Assembly: GCF_001403795.1 (NCBI RefSeq)
Contig: NZ_CXSU01000011.1
Coordinates: 271,258-335,257 of the forward strand
Source: Jannaschia donghaensis
Lineage (GTDB): Bacteria; Pseudomonadota; Alphaproteobacteria; Rhodobacterales; Rhodobacteraceae
DNA length: 64,000 nt
Direction of reading: 5' to 3'
Shown here piece after piece: positions 5,808 to 64,000 of this stretch. Both the position numbers and the translations under genes were made by a program. How positions within the stretch are numbered: the first letter of the stretch is position 1; every line of letters begins with the position of its first letter. The notes beneath the pieces are model-generated. The model saw only the letters and a list, made by a program, of their open reading frames with translations, searched no databases and had not been told where the DNA came from.

Positions 5808-5909
5808 CCTTTTCTCCGGCACGGTCGGGTCTTGGTATCCCGCCTGAGCCACATATGTAAGTCCGAGGGGGCGTCAAGGAAAGGCGAACCGCCGATCGAG
5901 GAGTTCATC

Positions 5910-6377
5910 ATGCCGCTGCTGGCCCTGTTTATCATCGTGCCGATCGTGGAAATCGCCCTGTTCATACAAGTCGGCGGCTTTTTGGGACTTTGGCCGACGC
6001 TGGCAATCGTCATCGTGACCGCCATGGCGGGAACCTATCTGGTAAAGCGTCAGGGCCTGGCGGAGATTGCGCGACTCCAGAACTCCCTGAATACGCTGGA
6101 CAATCCGACGCGACCCTTGGCGCATGGCGCGATGATCCTTGCCTCGGGCCTGCTGTTGCTGACGCCGGGGTTCTTTACCGACGCGGTCGGGTTCCTGTTG
6201 CTGATCCCGCAGGTCCGCGACAAGGTGATGCAGGCCGTGCGAAAGCGCATAAACGTCGAATCCTTTACCGTAGGCCCGCAACAATCCCCCCCGCCGCATC
6301 CCGATGACGACATCGTGGAGGCGGAATACGTCGAGGTTCCACCACAGGACGGTCCTTCGGGCTGGACCCGGCGCTAG
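5910..6377 (+). CDS. fxsA: FxsA family membrane protein
   Basis: 155 residues with the FxsA pattern: N-terminal hydrophobic block L-F-I-I-V-P-I-V-E-I, a second helix around L-W-P-T-L-A-I-V, a third around G-L-L-L-L-T-P-G-F-F-T-D, and a polar C-terminus. FxsA was named in E. coli for suppression of F-exclusion of phage T7. Its normal function in the membrane is unclear. The ATG at 5910 has a strong GAGGAG six bases upstream. The longer reading from 5787 overlaps the divergent Tim44-like start region and was rejected. secB follows 82 bases downstream on the same strand. Confidence 0.9.
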   Translation: MPLLALFIIVPIVEIALFIQVGGFLGLWPTLAIVIVTAMAGTYLVKRQGLAEIARLQNSLNTLDNPTRPLAHGAMILASGLLLLTPGFFTDAVGFLLLIPQVRDKVMQAVRKRINVESFTVGPQQSPPPHPDDDIVEAEYVEVPPQDGPSGWTRR

Positions 6378-6459
6378 CCGTCGTTGGTGCCGTGTTGTGA
6401 CGCGGTGCATCGTCTGTTAGGCGAAATCGACCTTTTTTCAGACCCGAGGACACGACCAC

Positions 6460-9700: not shown

Positions 9701-10105
9701 GGCACGTGGTTTGGCAACTCTGGGGACAAGGGGGCGAACAACCCGGTGTGAAAACCTGTGACAGGATTGGACCCTGCCGAACCTGAGGACAAGTCGCCGG
9801 TTTTCGGCAGGTCCCGTCGAAGTTTTCCGGCCCGGTCAAAGCGCCGTCGTGGCTGTGGGGCGTATGAGTTGTCGGTGGGTCGTATCGCCATATTCCCCAA
9901 GACGTTCCACAGGCATAGGCCCTGTGCGGGTTCATGTTGACCTGTTTTTCCTCAGACCCCAGGGACGCGGCATCAATCACGACAGCACGCTGTGCAAGGA
10001 TTCAGGAGCAAGATTCTATCCCCGATATCCACGCCCCCTACTATCAACTTCATCCTTTCTTGAATCTTTCTTTAAGATAGGAAGACAGGGAAATGAGGGG
10101 GGCAC
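9701..10105. other. Predicted chromosomal replication origin (oriC) spacer
   Basis: The only gap over 300 bases without a gene. It separates leftward maf-aroE-coaE-dnaQ from rightward hemJ-rho-mnmE-mnmG-rsmG-parAB, the same junction that holds the origin in Caulobacter and Rickettsia relatives. Inside: two reverse DnaA-box-like 9-mers TGGGGACAA (9721) and TGAGGACAA (9784), each 7/9 to TGTGGATAA. There are two adjacent forward candidates, CTATCCCCG (10016, 6/9) and ATATCCACG (10025, 7/9). Three GANTC sites lie at 9999, 10012 and 10062. An AT-rich stretch follows at 10041-10080 (12 of 40 bases are G or C), suitable as an unwinding element. No perfect DnaA box is present, so the assignment rests mainly on synteny. 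Confidence 0.62.
9769..9814. repeat. Imperfect inverted repeat inside the predicted origin
   Basis: GGACCCTGCCGAA (9769-9781) faces TTCGGCAGGTCC (9803-9814): a 12-base match on each arm apart from one extra C on the left, separated by 21 bases. The right-hand DnaA-like 9-mer TGAGGACAA (9784-9792) lies in the loop. There is no T-run and no neighbouring stop codon in the right place for a terminator of maf or hemJ, so a protein-binding or cruciform role at the origin is more likely. Confidence 0.6.
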
Positions 10106-11985: not shown

Positions 11986-12001
11986 CCCGGAGGATCACAG
12001 G

Positions 12002-13288
12002 GTGGAGGATACGATCTTTGCCCTGGCCACCGCACAGGGAAAGGCAGGCGTTGCGATTGTCCGGATATCGGGGTCGCGGGCGCTCGATGTTCTTGAAAGT
12101 CTCGGGGCCAAGGCGCCGCCCCCGCGTGGCAGCCGCCTGACGCTTCTGCGAGATGCTGACGGAGAGATCCTGGACCACGCGCTGACACTGTTCTTTGCAG
12201 AGGGGGCGAGTTTCACCGGTGAAAACGTCGTGGAGTTGCACCTGCACGGCAGTGTCGCGGTTGTTCGTGCCGTGCTGCGCACCCTGGGCAACGGCGGCAT
12301 CGCCCGGATGGCGGAGCCGGGGGAATTCACACGCCGGGCGCTGATGAACGGCCAGCTGGACCTGACGCAGGTTCAGGGTCTGGGCGATGTCATCGAGGCT
12401 GAGACGGAAGGCCAGCGCAAACATGCGATGCGCGTCATGGGCGGCGAGGTTGCGGAACGGATCGGCAGATGGCGTCGCGACTTGGTTCGCGCGATCGCCC
12501 TGACGGAAGCGACGATCGATTTTGCCGACGAAGACGTACCGGAGGACGTGTCGCACGAAGTTCGCGCATTGGTGACGAAGACGCGAGATGCGATCGATCA
12601 GGAACTGACAACCGCTGGCGGAGTTGCGCGGCTGAAGTCCGGGTTCGAGGTAGCATTGATCGGCGCGCCAAACGCCGGGAAATCGACGTTACTGAACGCG
12701 CTTACGAAATCCGATGCTGCGATTGTTACAGATGTAGCTGGTACGACTCGCGATATTGTTGAAGTTAGACTTGATATCAATGGGTTACCCGTCACACTAT
12801 TAGACACGGCTGGGTTGCGTGAAACAGATGATAAGGTCGAGAGAATTGGGGTTGAACGGGCTTTGGCACGGGCCACCAGGGCCGACATGCGCATCTTGCT
12901 GTATGAAGATGATATTCCGCCGCTTTGGCCAATTGATAAACATGCCGATGACATGATCGTCCGAACGAAGGGCGACTTATCCGGTGATCACGACGCTATA
13001 AGTGCCCATGATGGTCGCGGGTTGAACGAGCTTCTTGCGAAGATTGGTGAACGGCTTAGTTGCCGCATCGCCGACACGGGGCTGATATCGACGGAACGCG
13101 ATCAGATTGCACTAAGGGCGGCACTGAGCGACTTGGACACCGTTCTTGCAAACCTCGACTTCGATGACCCGGATTTGATTGCGCTGCGCTTGCGGGATGC
13201 CGCTACAAGTTTGCAGGGCATCATTGGTGGGGTTGATGTCGAACAGATATTGGATGAAGTCTTTTCTTCATTCTGTATCGGAAAATAG
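12002..13288 (+). CDS. mnmE: MnmE, tRNA U34 modification GTPase
   Basis: 428 residues, starting at GTG 12002 with CGGAGG upstream (the protein begins M-E-D-T-I-F-A-L-A-T). N-terminal tetrahydrofolate-binding domain to about 115, helical domain, and an inserted G domain with G-A-P-N-A-G-K-S-T, the D-x-A-G-T-T-R-D switch region and D-T-A-G. The terminal C-I-G-K holds the conserved cysteine. MnmE works with MnmG to install the carboxymethylaminomethyl group at the wobble uridine of certain tRNAs. From about 12700, inside the G domain, base composition becomes clearly AT-richer. The stop is two bases from the mnmG start. Confidence 0.97.
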   Translation: MEDTIFALATAQGKAGVAIVRISGSRALDVLESLGAKAPPPRGSRLTLLRDADGEILDHALTLFFAEGASFTGENVVELHLHGSVAVVRAVLRTLGNGGIARMAEPGEFTRRALMNGQLDLTQVQGLGDVIEAETEGQRKHAMRVMGGEVAERIGRWRRDLVRAIALTEATIDFADEDVPEDVSHEVRALVTKTRDAIDQELTTAGGVARLKSGFEVALIGAPNAGKSTLLNALTKSDAAIVTDVAGTTRDIVEVRLDINGLPVTLLDTAGLRETDDKVERIGVERALARATRADMRILLYEDDIPPLWPIDKHADDMIVRTKGDLSGDHDAISAHDGRGLNELLAKIGERLSCRIADTGLISTERDQIALRAALSDLDTVLANLDFDDPDLIALRLRDAATSLQGIIGGVDVEQILDEVFSSFCIGK

Positions 13289-13290
13289 GA

Positions 13291-15171
13291 ATGTTTCACG
13301 TGAAACACAGAGATTTCGATATCGTCATCGTCGGTGCCGGTCACGCGGGCACCGAGGCAGCTCACGCCGCATGTCGAATGGGAGTTAAGGTTGCCTTGGT
13401 GACCTTCCGGCATGGTGATATCGGCGTCATGTCCTGTAACCCGGCAATAGGTGGTCTTGGCAAAGGTCATTTGGTCCGGGAAATTGATGCTCTTGACGGC
13501 ATTATGGGGCGTGTGGCGGACAAAGCAGCGATACAATTCCGGCTTCTCAATCGCCGGAAAGGTCCGGCAGTTCGGGGACCAAGGGTCCAGGCTGATCGCG
13601 CCTTGTACCAAGCTGCGATGCTGGCGGAAATCGAAAGCACCCCGAACCTTTCTGTAATTGAGGGAGAGGTTGTTGATTTGCTTGCCGAGGCAGACGGGCG
13701 CATCACTGGTGTGGCGCTTGCCGATGGGGCAGAGATCCGTGCGGGTGCCACGATATTGACCTCGGGGACCTTCCTGCGAAGCCTGATGCATATCGGCAGC
13801 GAAAAGAGCGTTGGTGGAAGAATGGGGGCAGCCGCCTCCATCAAGCTCGCTGATCGGATCCTTGATCTTGGCCTGCGAATTGGTCGTCTCAAAACGGGAA
13901 CGCCACCCCGGTTGAAAGCCAATTCAATCGACTTCAGTGGTCTTGAACGTCAGGCAGGTGATGCCGATCCAACGTTGTTTTCCTTTCTTCACGACAAGCC
14001 ATTTGCACCGCAAATTTCCTGTTCGATTACACATACAAACGCCGCGACTCACGACGTCATCAGAAACAACCTCGAACGGTCCGCAATGTATGGCGGTATG
14101 ATCGATGGGACGGGCCCGAGATATTGTCCTTCTATCGAAGACAAAGTCGTGCGTTTTGCTGAGAAAGATTCTCACCAAATTTTTCTTGAGCCCGAGGGGC
14201 TCACATCAGATCTTATTTATCCGAATGGCATTTCGACGTCTTTGCCGGCGGATGTTCAGCAAGATTATGTGAATACTATCAAAGGCTTGGAAAAGGCTGA
14301 GATTGTACAGCTGGGCTATGCGATTGAGTACGATTACGTTGATCCTCGGGGCCTCACCTCCGGATTGCAGGTGAGAGGCGTTCCGGGCTTACATCTAGCC
14401 GGACAGATTAATGGAACGACCGGCTACGAGGAGGCGGCGGCCCAAGGCCTCGTTGCTGCTGTAAACGCTGTCCGGTCGATCTGGGGGGAAGATGCCGTCC
14501 ATTTTTCCAGGTCCGAAAGTTACATCGGCGTGATGATCGACGATTTGACGACGCGCGGCGTGACGGAGCCGTACCGTATGTTTACGTCAAGGGCCGAATA
14601 CCGACTGATGTTGCGGGCCGATAATGCGGACACGAGGCTTACCCCGCTGGGAGCTGCGGTTGGTTGCGTAAGCGCTGAACGGCTTACAGAATTCAATCAA
14701 AAGCATGATGCGCTGGCTGCGATGAAAACGCGACTGGAGGCTGTCGATCTTCCAGCTAAGACATTGCGGGAACTTGGGACTGACGTGAAAGAAGATGCTC
14801 AGACGCGCACGGGATACGACGCGCTTCGCCTACAGGACTGCGATGTCGATAAGATAATAGCGTTCGTCCCATCTTTGACGGCGGATCATCGCAGTTTGGT
14901 GGAACGTCTACAGTGTGATGCAATTTATGAATTTTATATCGAAAGGCAGATCCGGGAGGTCGATATGGTCAGGGCAAACGAAGCTTTGACGATCCCCCGT
15001 GACCTTCAATTTTCGTCGATCGGGGGGTTATCGGCGGAGCTGGTGAGCAAGTTTGAGGCCGTGCAGCCCGAAACACTTGCGCAAGCAGCTCGGATCGAGG
15101 GCGTAACACCTGCTGCTGTTGTGAACCTCCTCGCCGCGATCAAGCGTGATAAGCGTCGGGCGGCGTCGTGA
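13291..15171 (+). CDS. mnmG: MnmG, FAD-dependent tRNA U34 modification enzyme
   Basis: 626 residues. FAD-binding loop G-A-G-H-A-G-T-E near residue 15, the C-N-P-A-I-G-G-x-G-K-G-H-L motif, G-T-F-L-R, and the C-terminal helical domain with E-x-x-I-P-R-D-L-x-F-x-x-I-G-G-L-S. Partner of MnmE. The first codons after ATG encode F-H-V-K-H because they contain a perfect parS palindrome, so this N-terminus is shaped by a DNA site as well as by the protein. Only two bases separate it from mnmE, and the stop overlaps the rsmG start (GTGA). Most of the gene is AT-richer than its surroundings: a 60-base line at 14221 has 28 G or C. Confidence 0.97.
   Translation: MFHVKHRDFDIVIVGAGHAGTEAAHAACRMGVKVALVTFRHGDIGVMSCNPAIGGLGKGHLVREIDALDGIMGRVADKAAIQFRLLNRRKGPAVRGPRVQADRALYQAAMLAEIESTPNLSVIEGEVVDLLAEADGRITGVALADGAEIRAGATILTSGTFLRSLMHIGSEKSVGGRMGAAASIKLADRILDLGLRIGRLKTGTPPRLKANSIDFSGLERQAGDADPTLFSFLHDKPFAPQISCSITHTNAATHDVIRNNLERSAMYGGMIDGTGPRYCPSIEDKVVRFAEKDSHQIFLEPEGLTSDLIYPNGISTSLPADVQQDYVNTIKGLEKAEIVQLGYAIEYDYVDPRGLTSGLQVRGVPGLHLAGQINGTTGYEEAAAQGLVAAVNAVRSIWGEDAVHFSRSESYIGVMIDDLTTRGVTEPYRMFTSRAEYRLMLRADNADTRLTPLGAAVGCVSAERLTEFNQKHDALAAMKTRLEAVDLPAKTLRELGTDVKEDAQTRTGYDALRLQDCDVDKIIAFVPSLTADHRSLVERLQCDAIYEFYIERQIREVDMVRANEALTIPRDLQFSSIGGLSAELVSKFEAVQPETLAQAARIEGVTPAAVVNLLAAIKRDKRRAAS
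13292..13307. other. parS centromere site 1
   Basis: TGTTTCACGTGAAACA, a perfect 16-base palindrome identical to the classic chromosomal parS consensus bound by ParB. It begins one base into the mnmG ATG and encodes its first residues. parA and parB lie 2.5 to 4 kb downstream. It sits about 3.2 kb from the predicted origin, within the distance where parS sites are normally found. Confidence 0.95.
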
Positions 15172-15764
15172 CCGAAGATGCAGTACGCGGTGTTTCACGT
15201 GAAACATCCGACCAGCTTTTGCAACTCGTGCAAAAGTGGAACACCAAGATAAACCTAGTGGCTCCATCCACCCTGTCCCAGTTCCACGATAAGCATATCG
15301 TTGACGCGATAGATCTCGTTGCTTGCGCACAGGCAGGTGGGAAATGGTTAGATCTTGGCAGTGGGGGCGGATTCCCCGGCCTTGTTGTTGCCGCTCTGGA
15401 TGGGGGCGTGCGCGACGTGACTTTGATCGAAAGCGATCGGAGAAAATGTGCCTTTCTTGCGACGGCCCGGAGAGAACTTGGATTGACGTGTAATATTCTG
15501 AAGACGCGGATCGAAGACGCCGAATTTCAAAACGCGTCTGTTATAAGCGCGCGCGCCCTCGCCTCCCTTCCGAAATTGCTTGCTTTGTCGACCCCTCATG
15601 TTGCCGATAACGGAGAACTTCTTTTCCTGAAGGGACGTAATTGGCGCGATGAAGATGTAGAAGCGAGACGGTCTTGGGAGTATGATCTGGAAGTGATCGA
15701 TGGAACGGGCAATCACGGGTCCGTCATTCTCAGAATTCGAAATGCAAGGCGGACCGGACGGTGA
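15168..15764 (+). CDS. rsmG: RsmG, 16S rRNA guanine-N7 methyltransferase
   Basis: 198 residues. SAM-dependent methyltransferase of 16S rRNA G527 (formerly GidB). The SAM loop L-D-L-G-S-G-G-G-F-P-G is at about residues 60-70, followed by the acidic V-T-L-I-E-S-D strand end and the S-A-R-A-L-A-S-L motif. Starts at GTG 15168 overlapping the mnmG stop, and its own stop overlaps the parA GTG. Codons 8-13 (ending V-S-R-E-T) contain the second perfect parS palindrome. Composition is still AT-richer than average and returns towards normal in parA. Confidence 0.96.
   Translation: MTEDAVRGVSRETSDQLLQLVQKWNTKINLVAPSTLSQFHDKHIVDAIDLVACAQAGGKWLDLGSGGGFPGLVVAALDGGVRDVTLIESDRRKCAFLATARRELGLTCNILKTRIEDAEFQNASVISARALASLPKLLALSTPHVADNGELLFLKGRNWRDEDVEARRSWEYDLEVIDGTGNHGSVILRIRNARRTGR
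15191..15206. other. parS centromere site 2
   Basis: A second perfect TGTTTCACGTGAAACA, 1.9 kb from the first, in the early codons of rsmG (read as G-V-S-R-E-T). Both copies are identical in all 16 bases. I found no third copy or one-mismatch copy in the window by eye. Confidence 0.95.
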
Positions 15765-16549
15765 GAGCGAAGATCATCAGCATCGCGAACCAAAAGGGTG
15801 GCGTCGGCAAAACCACGACGGCAATCAATCTTGGTGCGGCCCTTGCCATGCGGGGCGAACGCGTTCTCTTGATCGACCTTGATCCACAGGGGAACGCATC
15901 AACCGGGCTTGGTGTATCCAAGGAAACGCGCCACCTAAGCACGTATGACCTTCTCCTACGGGAAGCGACGCCGGTCGAAATCGCGCAGGAAACAGATGTC
16001 GACAATCTCTGGATCATTCCTGCGACCATGGACCTGAGTTCGGCCGATACCGAACTGATGGCCAGCGCCCGGCGCGTTGTCCACTTGCGCAACGCCCTTC
16101 GTCTTAGGGAAGCGCCCTACACCTATATTCTGATCGATTGCCCGCCGTCCCTCAACCTATTGACGGTAAACGCTTTTGTGGCATCAGATACGGTTCTTGT
16201 TCCGTTGCAGGCGGAATTTTTTGCCTTGGAGGGCCTCTCTCAGCTTCTTTTGACGGTCCGGGAAGTGCGGACCACAGCGAATTCCGATCTGCGCTTGGAG
16301 GGCGTGGTGCTGACGATGTTCGACCGCCGCAACAACCTCTGCCTGCAAGTGGAGGAGGACGCGCGCGAAAATCTGGGTGACCTCGTGTTCCAGACGAAGG
16401 TGCCAAGAAACGTGCGGCTTAGCGAAGCACCCAGTTTTGCGATGCCGGTCTTGAACTACGATCCGACATCCCGCGGTGCCATTGCCTATCGCAGTCTTGC
16501 GGCCGAACTTCTTCAACGAAATGATCTTAAGCAGGTGTCCCATGTCTGA
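15761..16549 (+). CDS. parA: ParA, chromosome-partitioning ATPase
   Basis: 262 residues, GTG start in a GTGA overlap with rsmG. Deviant Walker A N-Q-K-G-G-V-G-K-T-T-T at residues 10-20, L-I-D-L-D-P-Q-G-N-A-S-T (A' motif), and L-I-D-C-P-P-S-L (Walker B region). ParA binds DNA non-specifically as an ATP dimer, and ParB-parS complexes stimulate its ATPase so that the duplicated origins are moved apart. Adjacent parB and the two parS sites complete a full chromosomal ParABS system. Confidence 0.97.
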   Translation: MRAKIISIANQKGGVGKTTTAINLGAALAMRGERVLLIDLDPQGNASTGLGVSKETRHLSTYDLLLREATPVEIAQETDVDNLWIIPATMDLSSADTELMASARRVVHLRNALRLREAPYTYILIDCPPSLNLLTVNAFVASDTVLVPLQAEFFALEGLSQLLLTVREVRTTANSDLRLEGVVLTMFDRRNNLCLQVEEDARENLGDLVFQTKVPRNVRLSEAPSFAMPVLNYDPTSRGAIAYRSLAAELLQRNDLKQVSHV

Positions 16550-17438
16550 CGCTCCCCCGAAGCGCGCGATGCGCCGCGGTCTTTCCGCCTTGATGGCAGA
16601 CGTCGGTGTGTCACCGACGGATCTGGGTACCAGCGTCGCACCTGATCAGCAGATCCCGATCGAACGGATCCGGCCGAACCCCGATCAGCCGCGCAGAACC
16701 TTCAACGAGGATGACCTCTCCGATTTGGCCGCCTCGATCTCGCAGAAGGGGATCATTCAGCCGCTGATCGTGCGTCCCGATCCGGGTATGCCGGGCCAGT
16801 ATCAGATTGTTGCAGGTGAGCGCCGGTGGCGGGCTGCGCAGCGGGCCGGCCTGCATGAGGTACCGGTCGTGCACCGCGAATTGGACGATACCGAAGTCCT
16901 TGAAATCGCAATTATCGAGAACATTCAGCGGGCCGATCTGAATGCGATAGAAGAGGCTTTGGGCTTTCGACAGTTGATGGACCGGTTCGGCCATACGCAA
17001 GAACAGCTCAGCACCGTTCTTGGCAAATCCCGAAGCCATGTCGCTAACCTGATGCGTCTGCTAAAGCTGCCGGATGCAGTGCAGGAAATGTTGCGACAGG
17101 GAACCCTGTCAGCAGGGCATGCACGCGCCCTGATCAACGCACCGGACCCGGTGTCGCTGGCCAAGCGCGTGGTGTCCGCCGGCCTTTCGGTCAGGGAAAC
17201 GGAGCGGCTTGCCAAGTCGGCGAGCGATCCAACGTCGACGAAGACCGCGTCGCCGCGCAGCTCCAAAGGCGAAAAGGATGCAGACACACGCGCCTTGGAA
17301 GGTGACCTGACGGCTGCGCTTGGGATGCTGGTCTTGATCGATCACGCGCCCAACGGCGAAGGTGGGCAGGTGTCCGTGCGCTACAAGTCGCTCGACGATC
17401 TGGACCGTCTTTGCCAGGCTCTCTCGTCAGGGCGTTGA
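16542..17438 (+). CDS. parB: ParB, centromere-binding CTPase
   Basis: 298 residues. ATG at 16542 overlaps the end of parA by eight bases and follows GCAGGTG. The N-terminal basic R-R-G-L-S-A-L-M peptide is the usual ParA-contacting region. The CTP-binding core has I-x-P-N-P-x-Q-P-R-x-x-F and G-E-R-R-W-R-A-A near residues 90-98. A helix-turn-helix (T-Q-E-Q-L-S-T-V-L-G-K-S-R-S-H-V-A-N) binds parS, and a C-terminal dimerisation region follows a polar linker. ParB loads at parS and spreads as a CTP-dependent clamp. Ends convergent with hemW with a 12-base overlap. Confidence 0.97.
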   Translation: MSDAPPKRAMRRGLSALMADVGVSPTDLGTSVAPDQQIPIERIRPNPDQPRRTFNEDDLSDLAASISQKGIIQPLIVRPDPGMPGQYQIVAGERRWRAAQRAGLHEVPVVHRELDDTEVLEIAIIENIQRADLNAIEEALGFRQLMDRFGHTQEQLSTVLGKSRSHVANLMRLLKLPDAVQEMLRQGTLSAGHARALINAPDPVSLAKRVVSAGLSVRETERLAKSASDPTSTKTASPRSSKGEKDADTRALEGDLTAALGMLVLIDHAPNGEGGQVSVRYKSLDDLDRLCQALSSGR

Positions 17439-44257: not shown

Positions 44258-44284
44258 GCGGTGTCCCCGGAATCGAGCCTTTGT

Positions 44285-44334
44285 AACAAGAACGCCCGGC
44301 GGCCCTGAGACAGGCGCGCCGGGCGTTTCTTGTT
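44285..44334 (-). terminator. Terminator downstream of tRNA-Leu
   Basis: A long imperfect hairpin: AACAAGAA(C)GCCCGGC on the left pairs with GCCGGGCGTTTCTTGTT on the right (both written on the plus strand). On the minus strand the tRNA gene ends ten bases before it. The A/T-rich outer arms give a T-rich 3' end. The rnd ATG follows about 28 bases later, so it may also act as a leader structure for rnd. Confidence 0.75.
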
Positions 44335-44343
44335 GGTAGACCG

Positions 44344-44430
<87 letters not shown>

Positions 44431-44556
44431 ATCCACGGTGCGCGGTGGGTATCTCCGGCTCGGAACGGTGTCAATCGCCCCGCTTCATAAAATCACAAGT
44501 CTTGCCCGCGCGGGTCACGGGCGGTATCGCAGCCCTGAAAAGCAGGAGTGCCTTCC

Positions 44557-63519: not shown

Positions 63520-64000
63520 AACGCGCGCCGCCTCGGCCAAGGTCGTCGGCCTGGGGATCGCGGCGATCGTCGTGATTCTGGCGGCGGCGGCGCTGTTCCT
63601 GTTCGTGACGCTGCCCGACGGCAACGCGTTCAACGCGCGGGTGGAACGGTTGTTCATCGAATCGGACCTGACCAGCCGGGCGGAAATCGGCCTGCTGGAG
63701 ATCCTGGCGCAGTCCGGGACGGCGTTTGCGGATGTGCTGGTAAGTTACCGAACGGTCATCTTTGTCCTTCTGGTTTTTGCCACCGCGCTTTTGATCGCGT
63801 GCATGGTGCTGCTTCTGGCGATCGTGACGCTGAACCGTCGCATGGGAGAGATCGAGCGGTCGGGAATTCAGGTGACCTCTTTGATCCTGGCGCGGGCTGA
63901 AAACGCGGTGATGCTCAACGATATCGAGCTGAAGCTGACGGATGCCGCGATGGAAACGCTGGCGGTGCTGGCCGAGGCGCGGCTGGACGGTGACATGCTG
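63491..64000 (+). CDS. Membrane protein running off the right edge
   Basis: GTG start at 63491 with AGGAAA five bases upstream; the frame is open for all 170 codons to the window end and has no stop. Two hydrophobic helices are seen: about residues 20-40 (G-I-A-A-I-V-V-I-L-A-A-A-A-L-F-L-F) and 89-112 (V-I-F-V-L-L-V-F-A-T-A-L-L-I-A), with a region between them that is mostly polar and a helical, acidic stretch after the second (N-R-R-M-G-E-I-E-R-S ... L-A-R-A-E-N-A-V). Family unknown. Overlap with the preceding small gene (29 bases) implies co-translation. Confidence 0.75.
   Translation, partial: MPAITSSVTETRAASAKVVGLGIAAIVVILAAAALFLFVTLPDGNAFNARVERLFIESDLTSRAEIGLLEILAQSGTAFADVLVSYRTVIFVLLVFATALLIACMVLLLAIVTLNRRMGEIERSGIQVTSLILARAENAVMLNDIELKLTDAAMETLAVLAEARLDGDML

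Follow-up and report, generated by a model that had tools for sequence, protein, structure and literature searches.

Rhodobacter sphaeroides belongs to the same broader bacterial group as Jannaschia donghaensis, the organism considered here, and in many bacteria the gene dnaA adjoins the replication origin. The oriC1 of R. sphaeroides was located by GC skew, and its boxes were checked with Ori-Finder (PMC6315104). In the portion drawn on here, one study finds dnaA conserved close to ori in three orders, Rhodobacterales being included by elimination, on a scale of twentieths of the ori–ter axis (PMC8116508). The origin of the Caulobacter/Rickettsia type (Cori) is described as being flanked by hemE and COG1806 and as containing CtrA sites (PMC1914354, in the part used here). 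At the level of the origin sequence itself, the published rule for the basal unwinding system (BUS) of bacterial origins requires a DnaA box that deviates at no more than two positions, a gap of up to 16 bp and three or more triplets of the form 3'-NAN-5' (PMC8287927, likewise in part).

The locus compared here with these systems lies in the window, that is, the whole 64-kb stretch of DNA that was analysed, taken from a draft genome of 3.48 Mb in 13 contigs. An initial annotation placed the chromosome origin between maf and hemJ, on the grounds that the spacer was the sole gene-free stretch of more than 300 bases and that genes ran away from it on both sides. Both points hold: the gap at 9701–10105 (C11:280958–281362) measures 405 bp and is the longest internal one in the window, the next (44258–44556) having 299 bp, and Pfam and NCBIfam agree on the identities of the flanking genes, whose strands point outwards. 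To the left, on the minus strand, lie dnaQ, coaE, aroE and maf (Pfam and NCBIfam support), and to the right, on the plus strand, hemJ, rho, mnmE, mnmG, rsmG, parA and parB (Pfam throughout, NCBIfam for all but parB). The gaps come from a rough gene caller, a codon model whose training set was 15 genes of the window and for which the window end at 63520–64000 is ambiguous; of the two open reading frames extending into the spacer, one scores −28 and the other +5.7, the calling threshold being 8. Elsewhere, at 5832–6410, reading frames overlap on opposite strands, the caller favouring that on the plus strand and the minus-strand frame (178 aa) having no Pfam match at 1e-5.

The proposal of an origin at this place is supported by position, sampled GC skew, conservation, a conserved core recognised by a sequence model (R1, below) and nearby parS-like sites, and the maf–hemJ gap is very probably where replication of the chromosome starts. 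The whole explanation, in which the spacer would be the oriC of the main chromosome, with DnaA loading on weak boxes, segregation by ParABS and descent from a Cori-type origin, is given a probability of about 0.93. The spacer and its DnaA-like sites are as follows.

9701–10105, no strand: candidate chromosome origin (oriC), the maf–hemJ spacer; longest internal gap, position conserved in relatives, sampled GC skew
9721–9729, minus strand: DnaA-like box, 7/9, within the aligned TGtg...AAC motif of 16 same-genus spacers
9784–9792, minus strand: DnaA-like box, 7/9 (TTGTCCTCA), in the GaGGAcAA block of the same-genus consensus
9946–9954, plus strand: DnaA-like box, 7/9 (TTTTCCTCA), with TTATCCCCA or TTATCCACC at the same place in some relatives
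10016–10024, plus strand: first of two adjacent DnaA-like boxes, 6/9; ATCCCCG is identical in 16 of 16 aligned same-genus spacers
10025–10033, plus strand: second box of the adjacent pair, 7/9 (ATATCCACG), from the motif scan and same-genus alignment

In all, the spacer holds four sites at 7/9 and seven at 6/9, that at 10016 being among the seven, and none at 8/9 or 9/9. The 9-mers of the initial annotation (7/9 at 9721, 9784 and 10025; 6/9 at 10016) are all recovered, together with a further 7/9 site at 9946, and its statement that the spacer lacks a perfect box stands, the best score being 7/9. Shuffled versions of the spacer contain a mean of 0.82 sites at 7/9 and reach four or more in 6 of 500 cases. 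The box count alone is, however, weak evidence, since four 7/9 sites occur in at least one further 405-bp segment of the window, whose start is near 15.8 kb; such clusters were sought within the window and in the 8 kb around dnaA. Inside parA, the region 15821–16280 carries four 7/9 DnaA-like sites per 405 bp.

Among the 86 unique spacers of relatives and the window (below), 220 boxes that differ from TTATCCACA at no more than one position are present in 36,765 bp, which amounts to 5.98 per kb; the remainder of the loci has 0.145 per kb (a 41-fold difference) and shuffles have 0.28 per kb. Of the 86 spacers, 78 have at least one such box. There is one twist in Jannaschia, namely that the consensus DnaA box is missing from all 16 same-genus spacers, that of the window included (perfect boxes 0/16), while nine of the 16 have a box with one mismatch. 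The DnaA of the genome carries GGRDHTTV in its DNA-binding domain, which we take to be the usual DnaA signature, and therefore a changed box specificity is not indicated. The origin seems to use only weak DnaA sites. Among other elements, a long inverted repeat had been listed as an origin feature; repeats are indeed present (13-nt arms at 85%, 9750/9793; 9-nt perfect arms, 9773/9803; two further 10-nt pairs at 90%), but 'long' overstates arms of just 9–13 nt, and the feature was dropped. Enrichment of GANTC was likewise set aside, the spacer having three copies but the mean over spacers being 1.44 versus 1.95 in shuffles, and a terminator-like site at 9926–9945 is close to chance (one found, 0.5 expected).

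The final ~90 bp before hemJ can be aligned family-wide: ATCCCC or ATCCAC is followed by a box and a GC-rich gap, and then by CCTAC, CATCATC and a T-rich tract. Within this part, a core of about 70 bp is defined by two adjacent DnaA boxes, the GC-rich gap, trinucleotides and the T-rich tract, in fixed orientation, and in the window it comprises the following.

10017–10080, plus strand: conserved origin core of boxes, GC-rich gap, trinucleotides and pyrimidine tract; best match in the genome to model R1, E 4.5e-7
10049–10057, plus strand: three DnaA-trio-like triplets (TTC ATC CTT), 15 bp after the box at 10025–10033, fitting the published BUS rule
10041–10080, no strand: AT-rich tract, likely the unwinding element, with an aligned T-rich tract in relatives

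The AT-rich tract had already been remarked upon, and its composition (28/40 A/T) bears this out; it lies beside the boxes, as an unwinding region of an oriC would. R1 is a sequence-only model of 72 positions, for which 51 of the 70 spacers carrying no Jannaschia label served as training set; its runner-up in the genome reaches only E 0.48. In a survey of 198 genomes of the family (one per genus, possibly including genomes of the training sequences) 144 have a match at E ≤ 0.01 (two matches in three of these), such that the core signature, without recourse to read depth, points to a single site in the majority of the family's draft genomes; under stricter filters, 54 of the 198 have no match at this level. 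hemJ was placed in 26 family genomes, hand-picked as complete, strong or weak cases, of which 23 have an R1 match and three (G064, G034, G084) have none. The best match lies 34–61 bp upstream of hemJ in 21 of the 23, the exceptions being G112, at about 1.07 kb upstream, and G072, which has no good hemJ match.

The BUS rule describes the spacer once (box 10025–10033, 15 bp, TTC ATC CTT), and applies to 72 of the 86 spacers on either strand and to 50 of the 86 when the match must face hemJ within the last 130 bp; in the controls it applies to 276 of 3523 windows of equal length from other parts of the loci and to 15.5 of 86 mononucleotide shuffles. On its own the rule is lax, since ten matches occur in the whole window and four of the 16 same-genus spacers (L025, L032, L033, L053) have no hemJ-facing match in the last 130 bp. 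In common with the published pattern (PMC8287927), the spacer has a two-mismatch box, a 15-bp gap, three NTN triplets and tandem boxes; unlike it, the number of triplets is the minimum and the gap is near the 16-bp limit, whereas the peak given in the part of that work used here is 10–13 bp. The core fits the pattern, minimally, and strand separation dependent on DnaA and the trios is predicted here.

Relatives were gathered by HemJ, by which the closest in the named collection are Jannaschia, giving 20 genomes of the genus (the present one included) and 80 named loci, from which L037–L043 (weak, with no match to any of eight query genes) and L110 (which begins just before hemJ) were dropped. 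hemJ with a divergent maf or aroE is found in 16 genus loci, including that of the window, and in 79 named loci, and the spacer set amounts to 96 including the window, 86 of them unique. A lack of conservation in relatives had been named at the outset as an argument against the origin; the spacer is found to be conserved, with a length of 376–459 bp where maf adjoins.

Conservation also bears on the alternative that the spacer does no more than provide promoters for the divergent genes maf and hemJ, its sites resembling DnaA boxes serving DnaA-regulated transcription. DnaA does also regulate transcription, and the divergent gene pair must have promoters in this spacer, but such an explanation is very unlikely. 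A scan for sigma-70-like promoters found none in the spacer, the skew prefers the spacer to dnaA (below), and the spacer persists where either gene is missing from its side. The arrangement maf–gap–rho is retained in all four genus mates that lack an orthologous hemJ (G001, G005, G012, G015), with gaps of about 437–510 bp, and therefore the spacer is not simply the hemJ promoter; moreover, in seven unique loci in which maf was not found, all labelled Paracoccus, it persists as an aroE–hemJ gap of 499–539 bp. R1 detects the core in the maf–rho gap of three of the four genus mates. In that of G005 it gives no match up to E 0.5 and the core is recognised by eye only, the sole genome-wide match (E 0.009) being at another place, in a part of a contig that lacks these genes. 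Among the genes searched, aroE is the left neighbour in the Paracoccus-labelled loci L066, L081, L088, L091, L095, L106 and L114; L177, L179, L180 and L199 represent four same-genus genomes that lack an orthologous hemJ next to the origin; and in L082, L096 and L115 about 1 kb separates hemJ from rho, as against 100–250 bp in most loci.

With regard to GC skew, dnaA lies at 646 kb of C11, 365 kb from the spacer, and, being on the same contig, the two origin candidates can be compared. All profiles derive from samples and resolve tens of kb, with permutation tests covering G006, G014 and G015. On the contig of the window (eighteen 20-kb samples, to 760 kb of 948 kb, plus the window) the skew is negative in five of six samples up to 220 kb, mixed between 240 and 480 kb (up to +0.087 at the right end of the window) and positive in seven of seven from 500 kb on. 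The change-point score is 0.520 at the spacer versus 0.176 at dnaA, the best interval being 210–250 kb (0.543), 30–70 kb left of the spacer. For G006 (a single contig, 20 samples) the respective scores are 0.377 and 0.181, with 27 of 2000 permutations reaching the spacer value anywhere, and for G014 (20 samples, reaching 2.72 Mb on a contig of 3.54 Mb) 0.292 and 0.006, with 9 of 2000. Best positions in these two relatives (1.675–1.710 Mb, spacer at 1.633 Mb; 0.625–0.710 Mb, spacer at 0.602 Mb) are some 20–110 kb off the spacer. In G015 (16 samples) the scores of 0.238 and 0.120 are not significant, 694 of 2000 permutations reaching that of the spacer, and the best position is at 0.315–0.385 Mb, the spacer being at 0.61 Mb. 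A switch of skew, as looked for at an oriC, is therefore seen on the contig of the window and in G006 and G014, and the spacer outscores dnaA in four of four genomes, clearly so in two relatives and without significance in one. The initial annotation had regarded a skew minimum elsewhere, for example at dnaA, as evidence against its proposal; the sampled skew, at its resolution of tens of kb, prefers the spacer.

That resolution, and best positions lying 20–110 kb off, would suit an origin outside the spacer but within tens of kb of it, such as one close to parAB or to the left of maf; this too is highly improbable, given that R1 has no second significant match in the genome and that related cores sit in the COG1806–hemE gap of other families. 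An origin at dnaA, which the frequent adjacency of dnaA to origins and the study mentioned at the outset would favour, is the least probable of the alternatives, the skew score at dnaA being below that of the spacer in all four genomes and the 400 bp upstream of dnaA holding no DnaA-like site at 7/9 or better.

The reading of the spacer itself as the origin raises its relation to Cori. The strict Cori definition does not cover it, since COG1806 was not found in the genome by a class-wide search that located it in 29 of 58 genomes, and hemE is at 944 kb of C11, 663 kb from the spacer. Unlike the Cori type, moreover, the spacer has no exact CtrA site TTAA-N7-TTAA, a site present in 8 of the 86 spacers when exact copies are counted. 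In place of flanking hemE and COG1806, it is the orthologous junction that is kept. Flanks were compared for 20 of the 29 COG1806 loci, all from other alphaproteobacterial families: maf is on one side of COG1806 in 20 of 20 (with more than 1 kb between in L204 and L207), and on the other side hemE comes first among the searched genes in 19 of 20, with hemJ (19/20) and rho (18/20) beyond. The suggestion that the Caulobacter and Rickettsia origin lies at the corresponding junction agrees with this, the division of maf-aroE-coaE-dnaQ from hemJ-rho being shared with most of the 20 loci.

A related core with the same facing is also shared, in 8 of the 20 loci. At E ≤ 0.05 all eight R1 matches, compared by hand, fall in the COG1806–hemE gap and face hemE, the other 12 loci having no match at this threshold; of four weaker matches (up to E 0.5), those in L212 and L216 are in the gap and face hemE, whereas of the two in L203 one falls within COG1806 itself and the other is in the gap but on the opposite strand. 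The maf–COG1806–hemE–hemJ synteny, together with R1 matches in that gap, points to the spacer as a descendant of a Cori-type origin. By gene order, it is the positional descendant of the COG1806–hemE origin, and probably its descendant in sequence as well. Weak DnaA boxes, as reviewed for Caulobacter (PMC4468827, in part), are a further likeness. The origin of J. donghaensis, in other words, looks like a stripped-down descendant of the Caulobacter-type origin, and probably works like Cori although it falls outside the strict definition.

As an element, then, the spacer is of an ordinary and essential kind, in surroundings that have been rearranged. More tentatively, and a little short of an even chance, a single core of about 70 bp may have been inherited across the Alphaproteobacteria, staying fixed while COG1806, hemE and sometimes hemJ or maf left its side, and may work in Jannaschia through low-affinity boxes only, with no consensus DnaA box. 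A literature search found no description of this origin among the matches listed, supplementary files being outside its scope, and no priority is claimed. Several independent lines place the Jannaschia origin away from dnaA, and two questions become open to test: whether weak DnaA boxes are enough for an origin to function, and whether the Jannaschia lineage lacks CtrA control of the origin.

As to mechanism, DnaA would load on several weak boxes dispersed through the spacer, as well as on the pair of adjoining boxes at 10016–10033, and then extend as a filament along the trinucleotide strand, beginning at about 10049 and running in the direction of hemJ; the AT-rich tract would then open and admit the helicase, and forks would depart from the spacer in both directions. 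ParB bound to parS at 13.3 and 15.2 kb would, with ParA, separate the new origins. The site would descend from the COG1806–hemE origin, in a lineage with COG1806 missing and hemE elsewhere. The elements concerned in segregation are these.

13292–13307, no strand: perfect parS-like 16-mer at the start of mnmG, 3.2 kb from the spacer
15191–15206, no strand: perfect parS-like 16-mer near the start of rsmG, 5.1 kb from the spacer
15761–16549, plus strand: parA (Pfam, NCBIfam)
16476–17438, plus strand: parB, reading frame as listed, the real start being perhaps further in, near 16569

Both 16-mers were scored against what we take to be the parS consensus. By chance, 0.08 parS-like sites are expected at up to two mismatches, and two exact ones are observed, placed near parAB and the candidate origin as in a ParABS system. 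Over 12001–17000 (mnmE-mnmG-rsmG-parA) the GC content dips to 0.54–0.57, compared with ~0.61–0.67 in most of the window.
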